This document shows positions 395 through 37,443 of a stretch of DNA of 37,675 nucleotides, one piece after another. A model generated the notes under the pieces. That model was not told the DNA's origin, did not search any database, and saw nothing but the letters and a program-made list of their open reading frames with translations. The number at the start of each line of letters is the position of its first letter. Within the stretch, counting starts at the first letter, position 1. Origin of the DNA: Verrucomicrobiota bacterium (GTDB lineage: Bacteria > Verrucomicrobiota > Verrucomicrobiia > Opitutales > Opitutaceae). A program made the translations under genes and the position numbers. The stretch covers positions 1-37,675 of the forward strand of contig JAUWBD010000025.1 of assembly GCA_030605125.1 (NCBI GenBank), in the 5' to 3' direction.

Positions 395-494
395 CGAGGA
401 GTCGAGTAGTCGAGAGGTCGAGGAGCTTGGGAGCTGGAGCGGAGGAGTCGGGAGTCAGGGAGCTTCTCGGCTCCTCGACTTCTCGACTCCTCGG
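395..494. repeat. Long imperfect inverted repeat between sucA and sucB
   Basis: The arm at 395-414 (CGAGGAGTCGAGTAGTCGAG) pairs with the complement of about 474-493 with one mismatch. The ~60-nt loop is also rich in GGAG/GAGTC motifs. It fills nearly all of the gap between the two genes, so the transcript would carry a strong hairpin. There is no T-tract, so a simple intrinsic terminator is unlikely. It resembles in style the hairpins at 31558 and 36359. Confidence 0.6.
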
Positions 495-30384: not shown

Positions 30385-31548
30385 ATGAAACTCCTCAACG
30401 TCTTCGGAGTCGTCGTCGGCGCCCACCTCGCCGTCTTCACCATCATCTTCGCCACCCCCGGCTGCCGTTCCACCGGCAAACAAAAGCCCAAGCCCGAGGA
30501 CACCCTCGCCGCCGGCGCGCCCGACACCCTCTCGCCGGTCGCCCCCGCCACCGATTTCGGCGCGCCGCGCATGACCGACGCCGACCTCAACCCCGCCACG
30601 GCGTCCACCCGCGTCTCGCCGGTCGCGCCCGTCGCCCCCACCGGCCCGGCCTTCGGCGGCGGCGCCGACGCCGGCGTGCGCTTCGCGCCCACCCGCCCCT
30701 CCGCCGCGCCCGGCGGCACCACCGACTTTGGCACCGGCGCCGCCGCGCCCACCGCTCCCGCCTGCGCCACCCACACCGTCGCCCGCGGCGACAGCCTCTG
30801 GTCCATCTCCCGCCAATACGGCATCACCGTGGACGAGCTCGCCGTCGCCAACCAGCTCGCCAAGTCCGCCACGCTCCGCCTCGGCCAACAGCTCTCCGTC
30901 CCCGCCAAGGCCGCTCCCGCCGCCCCGGCCGCCGGCACCGACGCCGCCAACACCTACGAGGTGAAGGCCGGCGACACCCTCGGCGCGATCGCCCGCCGCC
31001 ACGGCACCACCATCGCCGCGCTCCGCTCCGCCAACAACCTCTCGGGCGACAACCTCCGCGTCGGCCAGAAGCTCATCATCCCGGGCAACGCCGCCCCGCT
31101 CTCGCCCTCCGCCTCCGCGCCCGGTGGCGCGCCCGCCCCCGCCGCCACCAGCGCCGCCGCCGCTCCCCGCGCCGGCACCGCGACCTACACCGTGCAACCC
31201 GGCGACACCCTCGGCGCCATCGCCCAGCGTCACGGCGTGCGTGTCGGCGAACTCGCCACGCTCAACACCATCACCGATCCCGCCAAGCTCCGCGTCGGAC
31301 AGGTGCTCCGCCTCCCCGCCAACGCCCGCGCGACCAACGGCGCCGCGTCCGCCCCGGCCCCCGCCGCCACGCAGACCCCGCCGCCCGCCCCGCGACCCGT
31401 CGCGCCGGCGCCCACGACCACCCCGGCTCCGCGTCCCCCGGTCCAGCCCGTCCCGGTCGAGCCCGCCCCCGGCGGCAACGGCCTGACGCCCGTCGAGCCT
31501 GTGACCCCCGTCGAGCCGATGTCCGTCCCGGTGATCCGTATCGACTGA
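30385..31548 (+). CDS. LysM-repeat cell-envelope (lipo)protein
   Basis: A 387-residue exported protein. The first 27 residues form a signal sequence ending TPGC, a possible but imperfect lipobox. Three LysM domains lie at about 129-173 (HTVARGDSLWSISRQYGI), 189-233 (YEVKAGDTLGAIARRHGT) and 267-311 (YTVQPGDTLGAIAQRHGV), separated by Ala/Pro linkers, and followed by a Pro-rich tail. LysM domains bind the glycan of peptidoglycan. Its place between murD and ftsW, where most dcw clusters have nothing, suggests a role at the septum or in wall assembly. No catalytic domain is present. Confidence 0.9.
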   Translation: MKLLNVFGVVVGAHLAVFTIIFATPGCRSTGKQKPKPEDTLAAGAPDTLSPVAPATDFGAPRMTDADLNPATASTRVSPVAPVAPTGPAFGGGADAGVRFAPTRPSAAPGGTTDFGTGAAAPTAPACATHTVARGDSLWSISRQYGITVDELAVANQLAKSATLRLGQQLSVPAKAAPAAPAAGTDAANTYEVKAGDTLGAIARRHGTTIAALRSANNLSGDNLRVGQKLIIPGNAAPLSPSASAPGGAPAPAATSAAAAPRAGTATYTVQPGDTLGAIAQRHGVRVGELATLNTITDPAKLRVGQVLRLPANARATNGAASAPAPAATQTPPPAPRPVAPAPTTTPAPRPPVQPVPVEPAPGGNGLTPVEPVTPVEPMSVPVIRID

Positions 31549-31557
31549 TCCACTACC

Positions 31558-31648
31558 TCGTTCTCGTTCTCTTACTCGTTCTCGTTCTCGAAAAGAAATC
31601 GTTCCGCCTGCGGCGGGAGAACGAGAACGAGTAGGAGAACGAGAACGA
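31558..31648. repeat. Long inverted repeat between the LysM gene and ftsW
   Basis: Arms at 31558-31589 and 31617-31648, each 32 nt, built of TCGTTC/GAACGA units, match at 31 of 32 positions. The 27-nt loop has a small CCGCC/GGCGG hairpin. The left arm is identical to that at 36359-36390. No T-tract follows. Confidence 0.85.
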
Positions 31649-31678
31649 TAAGAAGACCACTTCTCTCCTCCCTCCCAG

Positions 31679-32839
31679 ATGCCCGCCCGCGATCTCGATC
31701 TTCCCGATCCCGACGCCCCCGCCTCCCGCGGCGGCGGGCTCGGGCCCGTGGGCGTCATCCTCGTCTGCGCGGCGGCGCTCTCCGTCCTCGGGCTGATGGC
31801 CGTTTACAGCTCCACGGCCTTCCGCTCCTCGTCCTTCTTCTACAAGCAGATCGCCGGCCTGCTCCTTGCCACCGGCGTCGGCTTCGTCGTCAGCCGCCTC
31901 GACCTCGAGTATTGCCGCCGCCACGTCTGGGTGATCGCCGTCGGCGTGCTCGCGCTGCTCGTCCTCGTGGCCATTCCCGGCCTCGGCATCAGCGTCAACG
32001 GTTCGCGCCGCTGGCTCGGCTTTGGCCCGATCCGCTTCCAGGTCTCCGAACTCGCCAAGGTCGGCCTCGTCTTCGTCCTCGCCCACTACCTCGCCATCAA
32101 CCAGTCGCGCATGCGCGAGCTGAAGGCGGGCTTCGCCGTGCCGCTCGTCATCATCGGCGGCTTCGCAGGCCTCAACATGCTCCAGCCCGACTTCGGCACC
32201 ACCGCGCTCATCGCCGCCGTCGGCCTCGTGCTCCTCTTCCTCGCCGGCGCGCGCTGGCTCTACATCTTCGTCAGCACGGGAGGCCTCGTCGCCGTCTTCA
32301 CGGTCGCCATCCTGCTCAACCCCAACCGCCTCACCCGCTTCCTCGCCTTCCTTGACGTCGAGGGCAACAAGCAGGCCGGCACCTACCAGCTCTACCAAGC
32401 CATCCTCGCCTTCGCCTCCGGCGGCATCGGCGGCGTCGGCCTCGGCCAGGGCCGGCAGCAGATGAACTACCTGCCCGAGGCGCACACCGACTTCATCTTC
32501 GCCATCGTCGGCGAGGAGCTCGGCCTGATCGCCACCCTCGGCGCGGTCGGCCTTTTCCTCGTCATCTTCGTCTGCGGTCTGCTCCACCTGCGTCGCGCGC
32601 CCAACCAGTTCCAGTATCTGCTCGTCGCCGGCTGCCTGCTCTTCATCGCGCTCCAAGCGATCGTGAATCTCGGCGTCGTCACCGGCCGCCTGCCCACCAA
32701 GGGCATGTCCTTGCCCTTCGTCAGCGCCGGCATGTCCAACCTCGTCCTCATGGGCATCCTGGTCGGCGTGCTCGTCAACACCCGCCGCGCCTGGTCCCGC
32801 AAGGAGACTCTCCCCGGCACCCGCGATTTCCTCGGATGA
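31679..32839 (+). CDS. ftsW: Septal lipid II polymerase FtsW (SEDS family)
   Basis: A 386-residue polytopic membrane protein with about ten hydrophobic segments; the glycosyltransferase partner of FtsI. SEDS motifs are LMAVYSSTAF, NGSRRWLGFGPIRFQVSELA, MLQPDFGTTAL, TYQLYQAILAFASGGIGGVG, LGQGRQQMNYLPEAHTDFIF, IVGEELG and LPTKGMSLPFVSAGMSNL. It overlaps murG by ATGA. The strong hairpin 30 bp upstream lies within its leader. Confidence 0.96.
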   Translation: MPARDLDLPDPDAPASRGGGLGPVGVILVCAAALSVLGLMAVYSSTAFRSSSFFYKQIAGLLLATGVGFVVSRLDLEYCRRHVWVIAVGVLALLVLVAIPGLGISVNGSRRWLGFGPIRFQVSELAKVGLVFVLAHYLAINQSRMRELKAGFAVPLVIIGGFAGLNMLQPDFGTTALIAAVGLVLLFLAGARWLYIFVSTGGLVAVFTVAILLNPNRLTRFLAFLDVEGNKQAGTYQLYQAILAFASGGIGGVGLGQGRQQMNYLPEAHTDFIFAIVGEELGLIATLGAVGLFLVIFVCGLLHLRRAPNQFQYLLVAGCLLFIALQAIVNLGVVTGRLPTKGMSLPFVSAGMSNLVLMGILVGVLVNTRRAWSRKETLPGTRDFLG

Positions 32840-33987
32840 TCGCAGCTTCCGCCGCAGCTCAATCTGGAGGGACGCCGTCCCCGGCGTCCGCGGCCGCTCC
32901 CTCCACCTTTCTCCTCTCCTGCGGCGGCACCGGCGGGCATCTCTCCCCCGGCATCGCCCTGGCTGAGGGCCTGGCCGCGCGCGGGCACCGCGCCGTCCTG
33001 CTCATTAGTCACAAAAAAGTGGATACGCGCCTGGCCGCCAAGTATCCGCATCTGCGTTTCGAGCCTATCCCGGGCACGCCCTTCGGCGGACACCCCGCGG
33101 TGCTTGGCCGCTTCTTCGTTTCCCAATCAAAAGGCTTCGCCGCCGGCCTGCGCCTCGTGCGCGCCGAGCGGCCCGCCGCGATCGTTGGCTTCGGCGGCTT
33201 CACCACCGCGAGCGTGATCCTTGCCGGGCGCCTCCACGGCGTGCCCGTCGCCTTGCACGAGTCGAACCGCGTGCCCGGCAAGGCGGTGCGCCACCTCGCC
33301 CGCTTCGCCCGCCGCGTTTGGCTGCCGCCGGGTGTCTCGCTCCCCGGCCGCGCCGGCGACCCGCGCGTGCGCGCCGCCGCTATGCCGGTGCGCGCCGAGA
33401 TCACCCGCCTGCCCCGCGCCGAGGCCGCCGCGCGCCTCGGGCTCGATCCTTCGCGTAAAACCGTCGTCGTCTTCGGCGGCAGCCAGGGCGCCACGCCCCT
33501 CAACGACTGGGCCCGCGCCGCCGCCCGCGACCTCGCCACCCTCGGCGTGCAGCTCGCCTGCGTGACCGGCATGGGCAAAGGCGACACCCGCGTCGTCGAG
33601 CACGGCGCCGGCCTCGCCCGCACGCTCTACATCCCTTTCTGCGACGACGTCGCCGCGCTCCTCTCCGCCGCCGATCTCGTGGTCGCCCGCGCCGGGGCCG
33701 GCAGCCTGGCCGAGTTTGCCCGCATCGGCGTGCCGGCCGTGCTCGTGCCCTATCCGCAGGCGGCCGACGACCACCAGCGCGCCAACGCCGCCTGGTTCGC
33801 CGAGCAGGGTGGGGGAGTGGTGCTCGAGCAAAGCTCCATCGGCCAGCTCACGCCCATCGTCACCTCGATCCTGCTCGACGAGCCGCGCCTCGCCTCCTTC
33901 GCCGCCGGCCTCGCGCGCATCGCCGCCACGCCGTCCCTCGACCTGATGCTCGAGGACCTCGAGCAAATCGTCGCCACCCGCAAATGA
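32836..33987 (+). CDS. murG: Lipid II synthase (UDP-GlcNAc transferase)
   Basis: A 383-residue peripheral membrane glycosyltransferase making lipid II. The glycine-rich loop LLSCGGTGGHLSPGIALAEG begins near residue 26. Further motifs are ESNRVPGKAVRHLARF, VVVFGGSQGATPLN, VARAGAGSLAEFARIGVPAV and PYPQAADDHQRANA. The first ~23 residues (MIAASAAAQSGGTPSPASAA) are an unusual extension encoded largely by a palindromic repeat shared with sucB. The start overlaps the ftsW stop (ATGA) and no other start lies before the core. Confidence 0.96.
   Translation: MIAASAAAQSGGTPSPASAAAPSTFLLSCGGTGGHLSPGIALAEGLAARGHRAVLLISHKKVDTRLAAKYPHLRFEPIPGTPFGGHPAVLGRFFVSQSKGFAAGLRLVRAERPAAIVGFGGFTTASVILAGRLHGVPVALHESNRVPGKAVRHLARFARRVWLPPGVSLPGRAGDPRVRAAAMPVRAEITRLPRAEAAARLGLDPSRKTVVVFGGSQGATPLNDWARAAARDLATLGVQLACVTGMGKGDTRVVEHGAGLARTLYIPFCDDVAALLSAADLVVARAGAGSLAEFARIGVPAVLVPYPQAADDHQRANAAWFAEQGGGVVLEQSSIGQLTPIVTSILLDEPRLASFAAGLARIAATPSLDLMLEDLEQIVATRK
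32864..32896 (+). repeat. Palindromic repeat inside murG (copy 2)
   Basis: Matches the sucB linker copy (45-77) at 31 of 33 positions and is read in the same frame (GGTPSPASAA). Here it is extended by an outer GGAGGGA / TCCCTCC pair reaching 32905, so the whole unit could fold as a long hairpin. Confidence 0.65.
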
Positions 33988-36344
33988 GCGCCGCCGCCTC
34001 CACGCTCCCCGAACTCTTCGGCCGCCCGGTCCGCGCGCTGCATTGCCTCGGCGTCGGCGGCATGGGCCTCGGTCCGCTCGCGATCTACGCGGCCGAGCTC
34101 GGCTTCGCCGTCACCGGGGCCGACGACGCCCTCACCGACGCCATGCGCGCCTGGCTGGAGCGCTCGCGCGTCACCCTCGGCGCGCCCGAGATCCTGCCGC
34201 TCGACGCCGAGCTGCTCGTCATTTCCTCGGCCATCCCGCCCTCGCACCCGGCGCTCGCCGCCGCGCAGGTGCGCGGCCTGCCCGTCGTGCGCCGCGGCGA
34301 GTTTCTCGCCGAGCTAGCCCGCCACCGCCGCCTCGTCGCCGTCTGCGGTTCCCACGGCAAGACCACCACGACCGCCATGCTCGTCACCGCGCTGCGAGCC
34401 GCCGGCCTCTCCCCCGGCTACGTCGGCGGCGGTCTTTTCGCCGACGAGTCCACGCCGCCCGCCGCCGCCGGCGCGAGCGATCTGCTCGTCGCCGAGATCG
34501 ACGAGAGCGATGGCACCATCGGCCGTTTCGCGCCCTTCCTCACCGTCCTCGTCAACCTCGACTGGGACCACCCCGACCACTACCGCACGCAGGCCGAGCT
34601 TGAGGCCGCCTTCGCCGCGCTCCTCGCCCGCAGCGCCGGCCCGGCCCTGATCAACGCCGCCTGCGAACTCTCCGCCCGCGCCGCCGCCGGCCGTCCCAAC
34701 ACCTTCACTTTCGGCCGCCAGGGCGCCTACGCCCTCGTCTCCTCCGCGCCCGCCGGCGCCGCCCGCCTCGAACTCACGCTCAACGGCCTCTTCGGCCCCG
34801 GCCTGCCGCGCGCCAGCGTCCGCGCCTTCGGCGAGTTCAACGCCCTCAACGCCACCGCCGCCCTCGCCGCCGCCCACCTGCTCGGCGCCGGCCTCCGCCC
34901 CGATTTGCTGGCCGACTACCCGGGCGTGCGCCGCCGCCAGGCCGTGCTCGCCAGCGGCGCCGCCTTCACCGTGGTCGAGGACTACGCGCACCATCCCTCC
35001 GAGATCGCCGCGCTGCTCACGGGCCTGCGCCTGCGTCTGCCGGCCGAGGGACGCCTCCGCGTGGTGTTCCAGCCCCACCGCTACAGCCGCACCAAACAAT
35101 TCCGCGCCGGTTTCGCCGCCGCCCTCTCCACCGCCGACGCGCTCTACCTGCTCGATGTTTACGGCGCGGGCGAAAGCGCGCTCCCCGGCGGCTCCACCGC
35201 CGACCTTGCCGAGACCTTGCGCGGCACCGCCTCCGGCCTGCCGCTCGTGCATCTGCCCGGCGAGCACGCGGCCGTCTTCACGCGCCTCGGCGCCGAGCTG
35301 CGCCCCGGTGACCTCGTGGCGATCGTCGGCGCCGGCGACCTTGATGTCTCCGCCCGCGCCTGGCTGGCCTCCTTCCGCTGGCCCGCCTGGTGGGATCGGG
35401 TCGCGGCCGCCCTCGCGCCGCGCCTCTCGGTCGAGACCAAGCTCCAGCGCGAGACGCCGCTCGCCGACAAGACCACGCTGCGCGTCGGCGGCGCGGCCCG
35501 CCTCTACGCCGAGCCGGCCAACGACACCGATTTGCTCAACCTCGTGCGCGCCGCCCACGCCCTCGGCCTGCGTGTGCTCCCGCTCGGCCGCGGCTCCAAT
35601 CTGCTCGTGCCCGACGAAGGTGTGGACGCCCTCGTCATCGCCCTGCGCCACCCCTTCTGGGAGTCGTTCACCCCTCTGCCGCCCGACACCGCCGGTGGCC
35701 CGCCGCGCCTCCGCGTGGGCGCCGGCCTGCGCCTCAAAAACCTCTGCGGCCTCGCCGCCAAGGCCGGCCTCGTCGGCTTCGAGTTTCTCGAGGGCATCCC
35801 GGGCAACGTCGGCGGCTCGCTCCGCATGAACGCCGGCGCGATGGGCGGCTGGATCTTCGACGTCGTGGAGAGCGTGGAGTTCGTCACTCTCGCGGGCGAG
35901 CGCCGCACCCTGCCGAAGAGCGCGATGCATGTGGACTACCGCCACTGCGCCGAGCTGCAAAACGCCATCGCGATCGCCGCCGTGCTTCGCCCGCCCGCCG
36001 CCGACACGCGCCCCACCGCCGACATTTCGCAACAGATCGACGCCTACCGCGACAAGCGCCGCAAGACGCAGCCGCGCGAGCCCTCGGCAGGTTGCATTTT
36101 CAAGAACCCGCCCGGCGACAGCGCCGGCCGCCTGATCGACGCCGCCGGCTTGAAAGGCACGCGCGTGGGCGACGCCGAGGTCTCGCCGGTGCATGCCAAT
36201 TTTATCGTCAACCACGACCACGCCCGCGCCGCCGACGTGATCGCCCTCGTGCGCCAGGTCCGCGCCGAGGTGGAGAAAAAACACGGCGTCCGCCTCGAGC
36301 CCGAGGTCCTGCTCTACGGCCGCGACTGGAAGGAGTTTCTGTGA
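33984..36344 (+). CDS. murC/murB: MurC-MurB fusion protein
   Basis: A 786-residue protein with two complete enzymes. Residues about 1-465 are MurC (UDP-MurNAc:L-Ala ligase): HCLGVGGMGLGPLAIYA, P-loop GSHGKTTTTAM (about 121), EIDESDGTI, NLDWDHPDHY, VEDYAHHPSEIAALL and FQPHRYSRT. Residues about 475-786 are MurB (UDP-GlcNAc-enolpyruvate reductase): TTLRVGGAARLY, LGRGSNLLVPDEGVDA, EGIPGNVGGSLRMNAGAMGG and SAGCIFKNPPGDSAGRLIDA. The last motif has Cys where the classical catalytic Ser lies, a variant seen in part of the family. The fusion links the reductase and the first amino-acid ligase of the pathway. It overlaps murG by ATGA. Confidence 0.95.
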   Translation: MSAAASTLPELFGRPVRALHCLGVGGMGLGPLAIYAAELGFAVTGADDALTDAMRAWLERSRVTLGAPEILPLDAELLVISSAIPPSHPALAAAQVRGLPVVRRGEFLAELARHRRLVAVCGSHGKTTTTAMLVTALRAAGLSPGYVGGGLFADESTPPAAAGASDLLVAEIDESDGTIGRFAPFLTVLVNLDWDHPDHYRTQAELEAAFAALLARSAGPALINAACELSARAAAGRPNTFTFGRQGAYALVSSAPAGAARLELTLNGLFGPGLPRASVRAFGEFNALNATAALAAAHLLGAGLRPDLLADYPGVRRRQAVLASGAAFTVVEDYAHHPSEIAALLTGLRLRLPAEGRLRVVFQPHRYSRTKQFRAGFAAALSTADALYLLDVYGAGESALPGGSTADLAETLRGTASGLPLVHLPGEHAAVFTRLGAELRPGDLVAIVGAGDLDVSARAWLASFRWPAWWDRVAAALAPRLSVETKLQRETPLADKTTLRVGGAARLYAEPANDTDLLNLVRAAHALGLRVLPLGRGSNLLVPDEGVDALVIALRHPFWESFTPLPPDTAGGPPRLRVGAGLRLKNLCGLAAKAGLVGFEFLEGIPGNVGGSLRMNAGAMGGWIFDVVESVEFVTLAGERRTLPKSAMHVDYRHCAELQNAIAIAAVLRPPAADTRPTADISQQIDAYRDKRRKTQPREPSAGCIFKNPPGDSAGRLIDAAGLKGTRVGDAEVSPVHANFIVNHDHARAADVIALVRQVRAEVEKKHGVRLEPEVLLYGRDWKEFL

Positions 36345-36358
36345 GCCCCGGCGAACAC

Positions 36359-36450
36359 TCGTTCTCGTTCTCTTACTCGTTCTCGTTCTCCTCCGGCGGG
36401 ACGGGGCGTCTCGCTTCGAGAACGAAGAACGAGAAAGAGAACGAGAACGA
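36359..36450. repeat. Long inverted repeat between murC/murB and ddl
   Basis: The left arm 36359-36390 is identical over 32 nt to that at 31558-31589. The right arm 36418-36450 is an imperfect complement (GAACGA units with small changes). The 27-nt loop is GC-rich. It fills most of the 127-bp gap. Confidence 0.85.
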
Positions 36451-36471: not shown

Positions 36472-37443
36472 ATGACCTCCCCCCGCATCACCGTCCTCGC
36501 CGGCGGCGTCTCCTCCGAGCGCGAGGTTTCGCTCGGTTCCGGCGCGGCCTCGGCCTCGGCGCTCGCGCGGCTCTGGCCCACGCGCCTGATCGACGTCAGG
36601 GCCGCGGCGCTCCCGCGCGGCCTCGATCCGCGACGCGACGTGGTGTTTTCCACCCTCCACGGCACCTTCGGCGAGGATGGCGGCATGCAGCGCCTGCTCG
36701 ACCAGGCCGGCATCACCTACGCCGGTTGCGACGCCGCCTCGTCCGCCCTCACGATGGACAAAGCCGCGACCAAACGCGCCGCCGCCGCGGCCGGCGTCCG
36801 TGTCGCGCCCGACCGCGTCTTCACCGTGCCCGGCTTCATCGACTCCAGCGAGCCGATCAGCCTCGCCCCGGTCTCGATCCCCACCGCCGACGAGCTCATC
36901 TCCGCCTTCGGCACTGAGCGCGTCGTCCTCAAACCCAACGACCAGGGCTCCTCCGTCGGCCTGGCCCTGCCCGAGGATCGCCACGCGCTGGCCGTCGCCC
37001 TCGCGGCCCTCGCCCCCGGCCACTGGATCGCCGAGCCGCGCCTCGTGGGCCGCGAACTCTCCGTCGGCGTCCTCGGCGGCAAGGCCATGGGTGTGGTCGA
37101 GATTCGCCCGCGCTCCGGCGTCTATGACTTCGCGAGCAAATACACCAAGGGCGCGACCGAGTATCTCGCCCCTGCGCCCCTGCCCGACGAAGCCACCGCC
37201 GCGGTGCGCGTCGCCGCCGAGAAGGCTTTCGCCGCCTGCGGCTGCCGCGATTACGCGCGCGTGGACTTCATTCTTCTTTCGCCGTCCGAGTTCTATTTGC
37301 TGGAAATAAACACGCTTCCCGGCATGAAGGAGACCAGTCTCCTGCCGATGAGCGCGCGCTGCGCGGGGCTCGATTTCACCGGGTTGGTCAGGGAGTTGGT
37401 GAGCCCCGCCGTGCGTCGTCTTCAGGAACGTCCTTTTGCGTAG
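36472..37443 (+). CDS. ddl: D-alanine-D-alanine ligase
   Basis: A 323-residue ATP-grasp enzyme supplying D-Ala-D-Ala for MurF. Motifs are LAGGVSSEREVSLGSG, FSTLHGTFGEDGGMQRLLD, YAGCDAASSALTMDKAATK, VLKPNDQGSSVGL, GRELSVGVLGG, YDFASKYTKGATEYLAPAPL, YARVDFILL and LLEINTLPGMKETSLLP. Length is normal. It lies between the MurC-MurB fusion and the probable ftsQ, the usual dcw position. Confidence 0.96.
   Translation: MTSPRITVLAGGVSSEREVSLGSGAASASALARLWPTRLIDVRAAALPRGLDPRRDVVFSTLHGTFGEDGGMQRLLDQAGITYAGCDAASSALTMDKAATKRAAAAAGVRVAPDRVFTVPGFIDSSEPISLAPVSIPTADELISAFGTERVVLKPNDQGSSVGLALPEDRHALAVALAALAPGHWIAEPRLVGRELSVGVLGGKAMGVVEIRPRSGVYDFASKYTKGATEYLAPAPLPDEATAAVRVAAEKAFAACGCRDYARVDFILLSPSEFYLLEINTLPGMKETSLLPMSARCAGLDFTGLVRELVSPAVRRLQERPFA

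Follow-up and report, generated by a model that had tools for sequence, protein, structure and literature searches.

Hairpins dispersed in a Verrucomicrobiota genome and in its dcw gene cluster have a likely partner in a gene of the 23S rRNA intervening sequence protein family

The division and cell wall (dcw) genes on a contig of a Verrucomicrobiota bacterium of the family Opitutaceae (JAUWBD010000025.1; the window is the whole stretch analysed, 37,675 nucleotides) are interrupted by two long hairpins, hairpin 1 in the gap before ftsW and hairpin 2 in the gap before ddl. Our results make it probable that both are gene-less, non-autonomous copies, similar to REPINs (hairpins formed by paired repetitive extragenic palindromic, REP, sequences) or to miniature inverted-repeat transposable elements (MITEs), of an element that depends on an intervening sequence protein (IVP) and is built like the intervening sequences (IVS) of rRNA. 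The partner of the hairpins is likely to be a gene for IVP (PF05635) and not a Y1 transposase of the REP-associated kind.

The two dcw hairpins are real structures and not products of chance. Their left arms, 32 nt of TCGTTC units on the + strand (31558-31589 and 36359-36390), are identical, and coordinates and repeat finding agree on this with an earlier note made from the window's letters alone. The arms of hairpin 1 pair at 31 of 32 positions, again as that note had reported, with a right arm of 32 nt at 31617-31648; the right arm of hairpin 2 (36418-36450) pairs with a one-base bulge, and a gap-free repeat finder recovers only 25 nt of it, 96% complementary. Both loops are of 27 nt (31590-31616 and 36391-36417, + strand) and no IVP gene lies between the arms. 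The folding energy of the + strand RNA is -67.9 kcal/mol for hairpin 1 and -67.6 kcal/mol for hairpin 2 (z-scores of -9.5 and -7.9), and none of 200 shuffled sequences was equally stable. Hairpin 1 starts 9 nt past the stop codon of a LysM-type gene, and hairpin 2 lies 14 nt past that of murB. The loops had been described as entirely different; they are unrelated to each other, but that of hairpin 1 holds a core, CCGCCTGCGGCGG, which recurs in other copies.

The arms belong to a repeat family that is dispersed in this genome. With up to three mismatches allowed, the arm pattern has 27 matches genome-wide and the backward pattern none, and the arm is therefore not unique to the two dcw gaps; uniqueness would have spoken against the mobile hairpin family proposed in the earlier note. 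That proposal is supported by the genome-wide copies, by the empty sites of relatives and by the common loop core. Of the short paired copies in this genome, 11 were read: eight contain the core (of the type CCGCC..GCGGCGG, with at most one change), six in one orientation and two in the opposite one, while three, hairpin 2 included, are without it. The outer ends of the 11 copies, read by eye, are TCGTTC or TCTTTC on one side and GAACGA or GAAAGA on the other. A neighbouring frame could be called for nine copies, the caller requiring at least 110 codons and GC-rich third positions, and all nine copies are found 3-21 nt past a stop codon; the other two were not callable. When 14 other members of the genus were compared, 13 of them readable at each gap, the TCGTTC hairpin was absent from all 13 at both dcw gaps. 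One genome (G006, L283) has a different insert in its murB-ddl gap, with units that by eye resemble the arms of one of its own IVP genes (L103). In a search of 95 genomes, arm matches occurred in 27, this genome counted, all of them in the window's own family, and in none of the 34 genomes outside it; the backward-pattern controls were zero except in G020 (3) and G043 (1). Genome G020 also has several sites with long tandem arrays of pure TCGTTC, much more regular than the arms in the window.

The link to IVP comes from a locus of this genome, G000:C210, where the same arms, 402 nt apart, enclose a frame of 137 codons that adjoins a miaB-like gene. It matches PF05635 (23S_rRNA_IVP) at 79 bits, with a cut-off of 33.8, and the 'four helix bundle protein' model TIGR02436 at 70.9 bits, with a cut-off of 24. 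The stop codon of this frame sits within the arm, which may be the reason for an odd TTAC unit in the middle of that arm; the same placement within the stop-side arm was found at L007 (1515-1517) and in 13 of 69 armed IVP genes. Four IVP matches are present in this genome, and the three above the cut-off, C210, C131 and C262, are each flanked by inverted arms with a different unit in each. The fourth, C244, is below it at 25.3 bits and its flanks fail the arm score (11.5), and by eye a hairpin of yet another unit stands at its start. The pattern of the C262 unit has 210 matches in this genome, overlaps counted, against a control of 0. Moreover, a further hairpin in the window (395-493, no strand assigned), with the unit type GTCGAGGAG, resembles the arms of C131, so that the window carries two hairpin families.

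Flanking arms are common at IVP genes in general. In a set from this and related families, 131 loci were examined among the IVP matches listed, a choice that left out part of the weak tail and some fragments at contig edges, and 127 had enough flank; inverted repeats scoring at least 17 flanked 69 of them, compared with 4 of 300 swapped IVP flanks, 1 of 30 PIN genes and 4 of 31 Y1 genes. None of the inverted repeats at the control PIN and Y1 genes was a short-unit array. The swapped-flank control itself was high for Y1 (49/300) and PIN (9/300), presumably because some of the sampled loci are near-copies. In a second set, made of the best 80 of 573 relatives in GTDB genomes and including, as judged by their record titles, Bacteroidota, Acidobacteria, Planctomycetes, Proteobacteria, Patescibacteria and Anaerolineales, 77 loci had enough flank and 44 of these passed the arm threshold; only 2 of 234 shifted windows taken from those loci did so, and 4 of 400 swaps. 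Locus L368 belongs to both sets. The units at flanked IVP genes are imperfect and 6-8 nt long, with a best period of 7 in 49 of 68 loci of the family set and 32 of 44 of the multi-phylum set, and those of the dcw arms are of 6. Additional arm copies were found within about 10 kb at 16 of 39 loci, 47 in total against 7 for the reversed arm, a count to which one low-complexity locus contributes 6 forward and 6 reversed. Among plasmids, an IVP match is present in 34 records, and 8 of 10 that were fetched pass the arm threshold. Nine 23S rRNA words, used with no positive control, were not found at the 77 multi-phylum loci, and a single query gave no IVP match in a phage collection.

As judged from sequence comparison, arm type follows IVP lineage. 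Arms were similar in 47 of 56 pairs of IVPs with at least 60% identity, in 13 of 101 pairs at 45-60% and in 7 of 2189 pairs below 45%, and the correlation between arms and proteins (Mantel r 0.57) was equalled in none of 2000 permutations. At 60% identity or more, similar arms were seen in 39 of 41 pairs whose flanks are homologous and in 8 of 15 whose flanks are not. The clade of IVPs with TCGTTC arms, defined by at least 141 bits to the C210 protein, is found in 11 of 61 genomes of the family, with a miaB-like neighbour (identified by motif words) in all 11. These 11 genomes have 0, 3, 4, 10, 14, 27, 33, 40, 47, 50 and 114 arm matches, most of all the arms counted, overlapping matches in tandem arrays included, while 33 of the 50 family genomes without the clade have none and 17 have 1-20. 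Loss of the arms at the resident IVP genes of G040 and G057 was considered and rejected, given that arms are present there as units that have drifted to TCTTTC on both sides, and the TCGTTC pattern therefore undercounts both genomes. The resident IVP frame is open in the 10 copies compared, with a median pN/pS of 0.29 at near-saturated synonymous sites. These 11 genomes combine a single-copy resident partner with dispersed copies, with IVP in the place of a transposase.

Insertion of a whole element was read on cyanobacterial plasmids. An IVP element is present in plasmid C of Trichormus variabilis ATCC 29413 and in two other plasmids, and six near-identical plasmids, recognised by matched length among 12 of 48 records listed, are without it. 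At the two empty sites that were read, the flanks are 97.5-99.6% identical, and the insertion is of 428 nt including one GTAAT, the 5-bp duplication GTAAT bounding the arms on either side. The element came in as a single unit, arms and gene together, with the duplication. At this site the plasmid of L480 carries a copy from which part has been deleted. In Nostoc sp. ATCC 53789, plasmid pNsp_c shows an inverted pair of short-unit arms (L484, 500-800) without an annotated IVP gene, at a site occupied by an IVP element in two other plasmids; this is possibly a natural arm-only copy.

The architecture of these elements recalls that of the IVS in the 23S rRNA of Coxiella, which has been described as a sequence of about 428 nt with a 28-bp terminal stem cut by RNase III, an S23p/IVP gene in the loop and three to four tandem heptamers at its 5′ end (PMC4990558). 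An older hypothesis of Ralph and McClelland (1993), recounted in the same source, holds that the IVS reading frame serves mobility. The hairpins described here share with the rRNA IVS a terminal inverted-repeat stem of short tandem units and, in the C210 copy, the IVP gene inside it; they differ in that the dcw copies lie between protein genes and not in 23S rRNA, in the presence of arm-only copies throughout the genome, and in TCGTTC units of 6 instead of Coxiella's 7. As in the REPIN-RAYT system (RAYT, REP-associated tyrosine transposase; PMC8049555), a single-copy partner inherited in place is accompanied by dispersed, short, non-autonomous hairpins, although here the partner is a four-helix bundle of the IVP family and not a Y1 transposase, and the arms are short-unit arrays. 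MITEs are likewise short and gene-less with terminal inverted repeats, but no transposase is known for the hairpins, and a target duplication is seen only at one full IVP element and not at short copies. Heptamer repeats have been reported in Nostoc and, as GGGAATC, in Xanthomonas, where they mostly form four units, often as inverted pairs and preferentially less than 50 bp from stop codons; that study found no general link to mobile elements (PMC4692102). Our arrays resemble those of Xanthomonas in unit number, inverted pairing and proximity to stop codons, and that species of Xanthomonas also has an IVP-like protein, XCC0516 (2gsc). The structure modelled for the IVP relative L368, with a mean pLDDT of 93.8, matches two structures of the S23 family, 2gsc (E 9e-9) and 2rld (E 6e-4). 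It also has the fold of Avd of diversity-generating retroelements (4dwl, 8ube; TM-score 0.73-0.74), although the match is weak (Foldseek E 0.013-0.025, identity 10-13%), and this predicted likeness suggests that a route through RNA or cDNA may be worth testing. Earlier literature linking IVP genes to dispersed hairpins was not found among the top results of a search that left bioRxiv preprints and most subscription journals outside its reach.

Taken together, these data suggest that the full form of the element, about 430-510 nt long, has an IVP gene between two inverted arms, each of about 32 nt and composed of imperfect short units. In this genome the C210 gene is the likely source of the hairpins. 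The C210-type locus is passed on in place from one genus to another, while hairpins of arms alone would spread to intergenic sites just past stop codons. Acting in trans, IVP would have the hairpin as its target in the form of RNA or of single-stranded DNA, recognise its own type of arm and help to copy hairpins consisting of arms alone, with catalysis supplied by the host or by another enzyme. We infer this role in copying, as we do any effect on dcw RNA, where the stem in the mRNA would be a tolerated insert, possibly cut by RNase III, rather than a designed signal.

Several observations weigh against this proposal. No movement was observed and no catalytic enzyme was found, the neighbourhood of IVP genes not having been searched for a reverse transcriptase. 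A target duplication is not established for any short copy, and a single insertion could be read with base precision; plasmid sites B and C show presence and absence but no clear duplication. Most pairs with the same arms share flanks, and descent in place therefore explains much of the match between arms and proteins; the excess of arms in genomes with the TCGTTC-arm clade (Mann-Whitney p 3e-6) ignores kinship. The 17 genomes that keep 1-20 arm matches without this clade, among them G001 with 10 matches and no IVP match whatever, also count here, and the arm threshold was missed by 58 of 127 IVP loci in the family set and 33 of 77 in the multi-phylum set.

The persistence of some arms in genomes without a matching IVP, and the existence of IVP genes without detectable arms, would be expected if another enzyme moved anything with such arms, and IVP were merely carried along or employed otherwise; we know of no catalytic site in IVP, which also favours such an account. 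It is nevertheless unlikely, given that about half of the IVP genes have such arms and PIN genes seldom do, that arm type tracks IVP lineage even where flanks are not homologous (8 of 15 close pairs), and that the IVP frame remains intact with the low pN/pS given above. The hairpins might instead be kept as signals of RNA processing or mRNA stability that divide a long dcw transcript, as very stable stems within an apparent operon could suggest and as the cutting of the similar rRNA IVS stem by RNase III (PMC4990558) would allow. This we find improbable, since both gaps lack the hairpins in all readable relatives of the genus, elsewhere in the genome unrelated genes are followed by the same hairpins, and neither stem is followed by a T run. 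An intrinsic terminator scan, which allows loops of 3-8 only, gave no site at either hairpin, and Rfam gave no match over the gathering score in the window and five loci.

A classical REP or REPIN population moved by a REP-associated (TnpA_REP, Y1) transposase, as suggested in the earlier note, would produce the same pattern of dispersed intergenic copies near stop codons with a resident partner gene, and this genome does have four Y1 genes. The suggestion is unsupported and very improbable: none of the four Y1 loci (about 1.5 kb on each side) contains the arm's exact core word, the degenerate pattern having one lone match there (L029, at 2415), and the repeats at 4 of the 31 Y1 genes of the sampled genomes are never periodic. 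The GTAG or CGTC tag at the hairpin foot, a feature of REP/RAYT hairpins (PMC3733652), was absent by eye from the 11 copies. Finally, the inverted arrays could have arisen with no transposition, from short tandem units that underwent local slippage and gene conversion. The arms are indeed degenerate tandem units of variable number, two heptamers fewer in the plasmid element at L481, and those of resident elements change together (the own-pair sum is 268.5, the permuted mean 209, and 0 of 20,000 permutations reached the former), though the own partner was best or tied in just 3 of 10 rows. We give this account hardly any credence, given that the plasmid element came as one unit of arms and gene with a duplication, and that a loop core common to 8 of the 11 copies implies that they were copied from a source.

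Beyond this genome, the IVP-dependent reading of the hairpins leads to a broader proposal, for which we see the chances as evenly balanced: that IVP genes define an unrecognised class of mobile elements spanning phyla, with an Avd-like protein lacking a catalytic site of its own, lineage-matched arms of 6-8-nt units, a short target duplication and populations of gene-less hairpins. The rRNA IVS would then be its special case in rDNA, and heptamer repeats such as GGGAATC of Xanthomonas its hairpin populations. If true, a protein family whose name refers solely to insertions in rRNA would gain a role in genomes, several orphan families of short repeats between genes would be explained, and a second system of partner protein and hairpin population would stand beside REPIN-RAYT. 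The spread of the rRNA IVS would also become testable, by asking whether IVP recognises and moves its own type of arm.

The genes next to the two hairpins are all on the + strand. The LysM-type cell-wall gene (30385-31548) has LWXIA as its only NCBIfam domain above cut-off, and the ftsW-like gene (31679-32839) has ftsW as its best NCBIfam match, at 323.8 bits, below the cut-off of 337.5. Hairpin 2 lies between a murC-murB fusion (33984-36344) and ddl, encoding D-alanine--D-alanine ligase (36472-37443). Among the Y1 loci, three Y1_Tnp matches of equal score, spaced by 836 nt, look like a tandem triplication (G011:C1:723729-725730). On two cyanobacterial plasmids, armed IVP genes (L471, 1501-1860; L477, 1495-1863) lie between cas6 and cas4 in CRISPR loci, and the cas1d downstream at L477 is annotated as type I-D.

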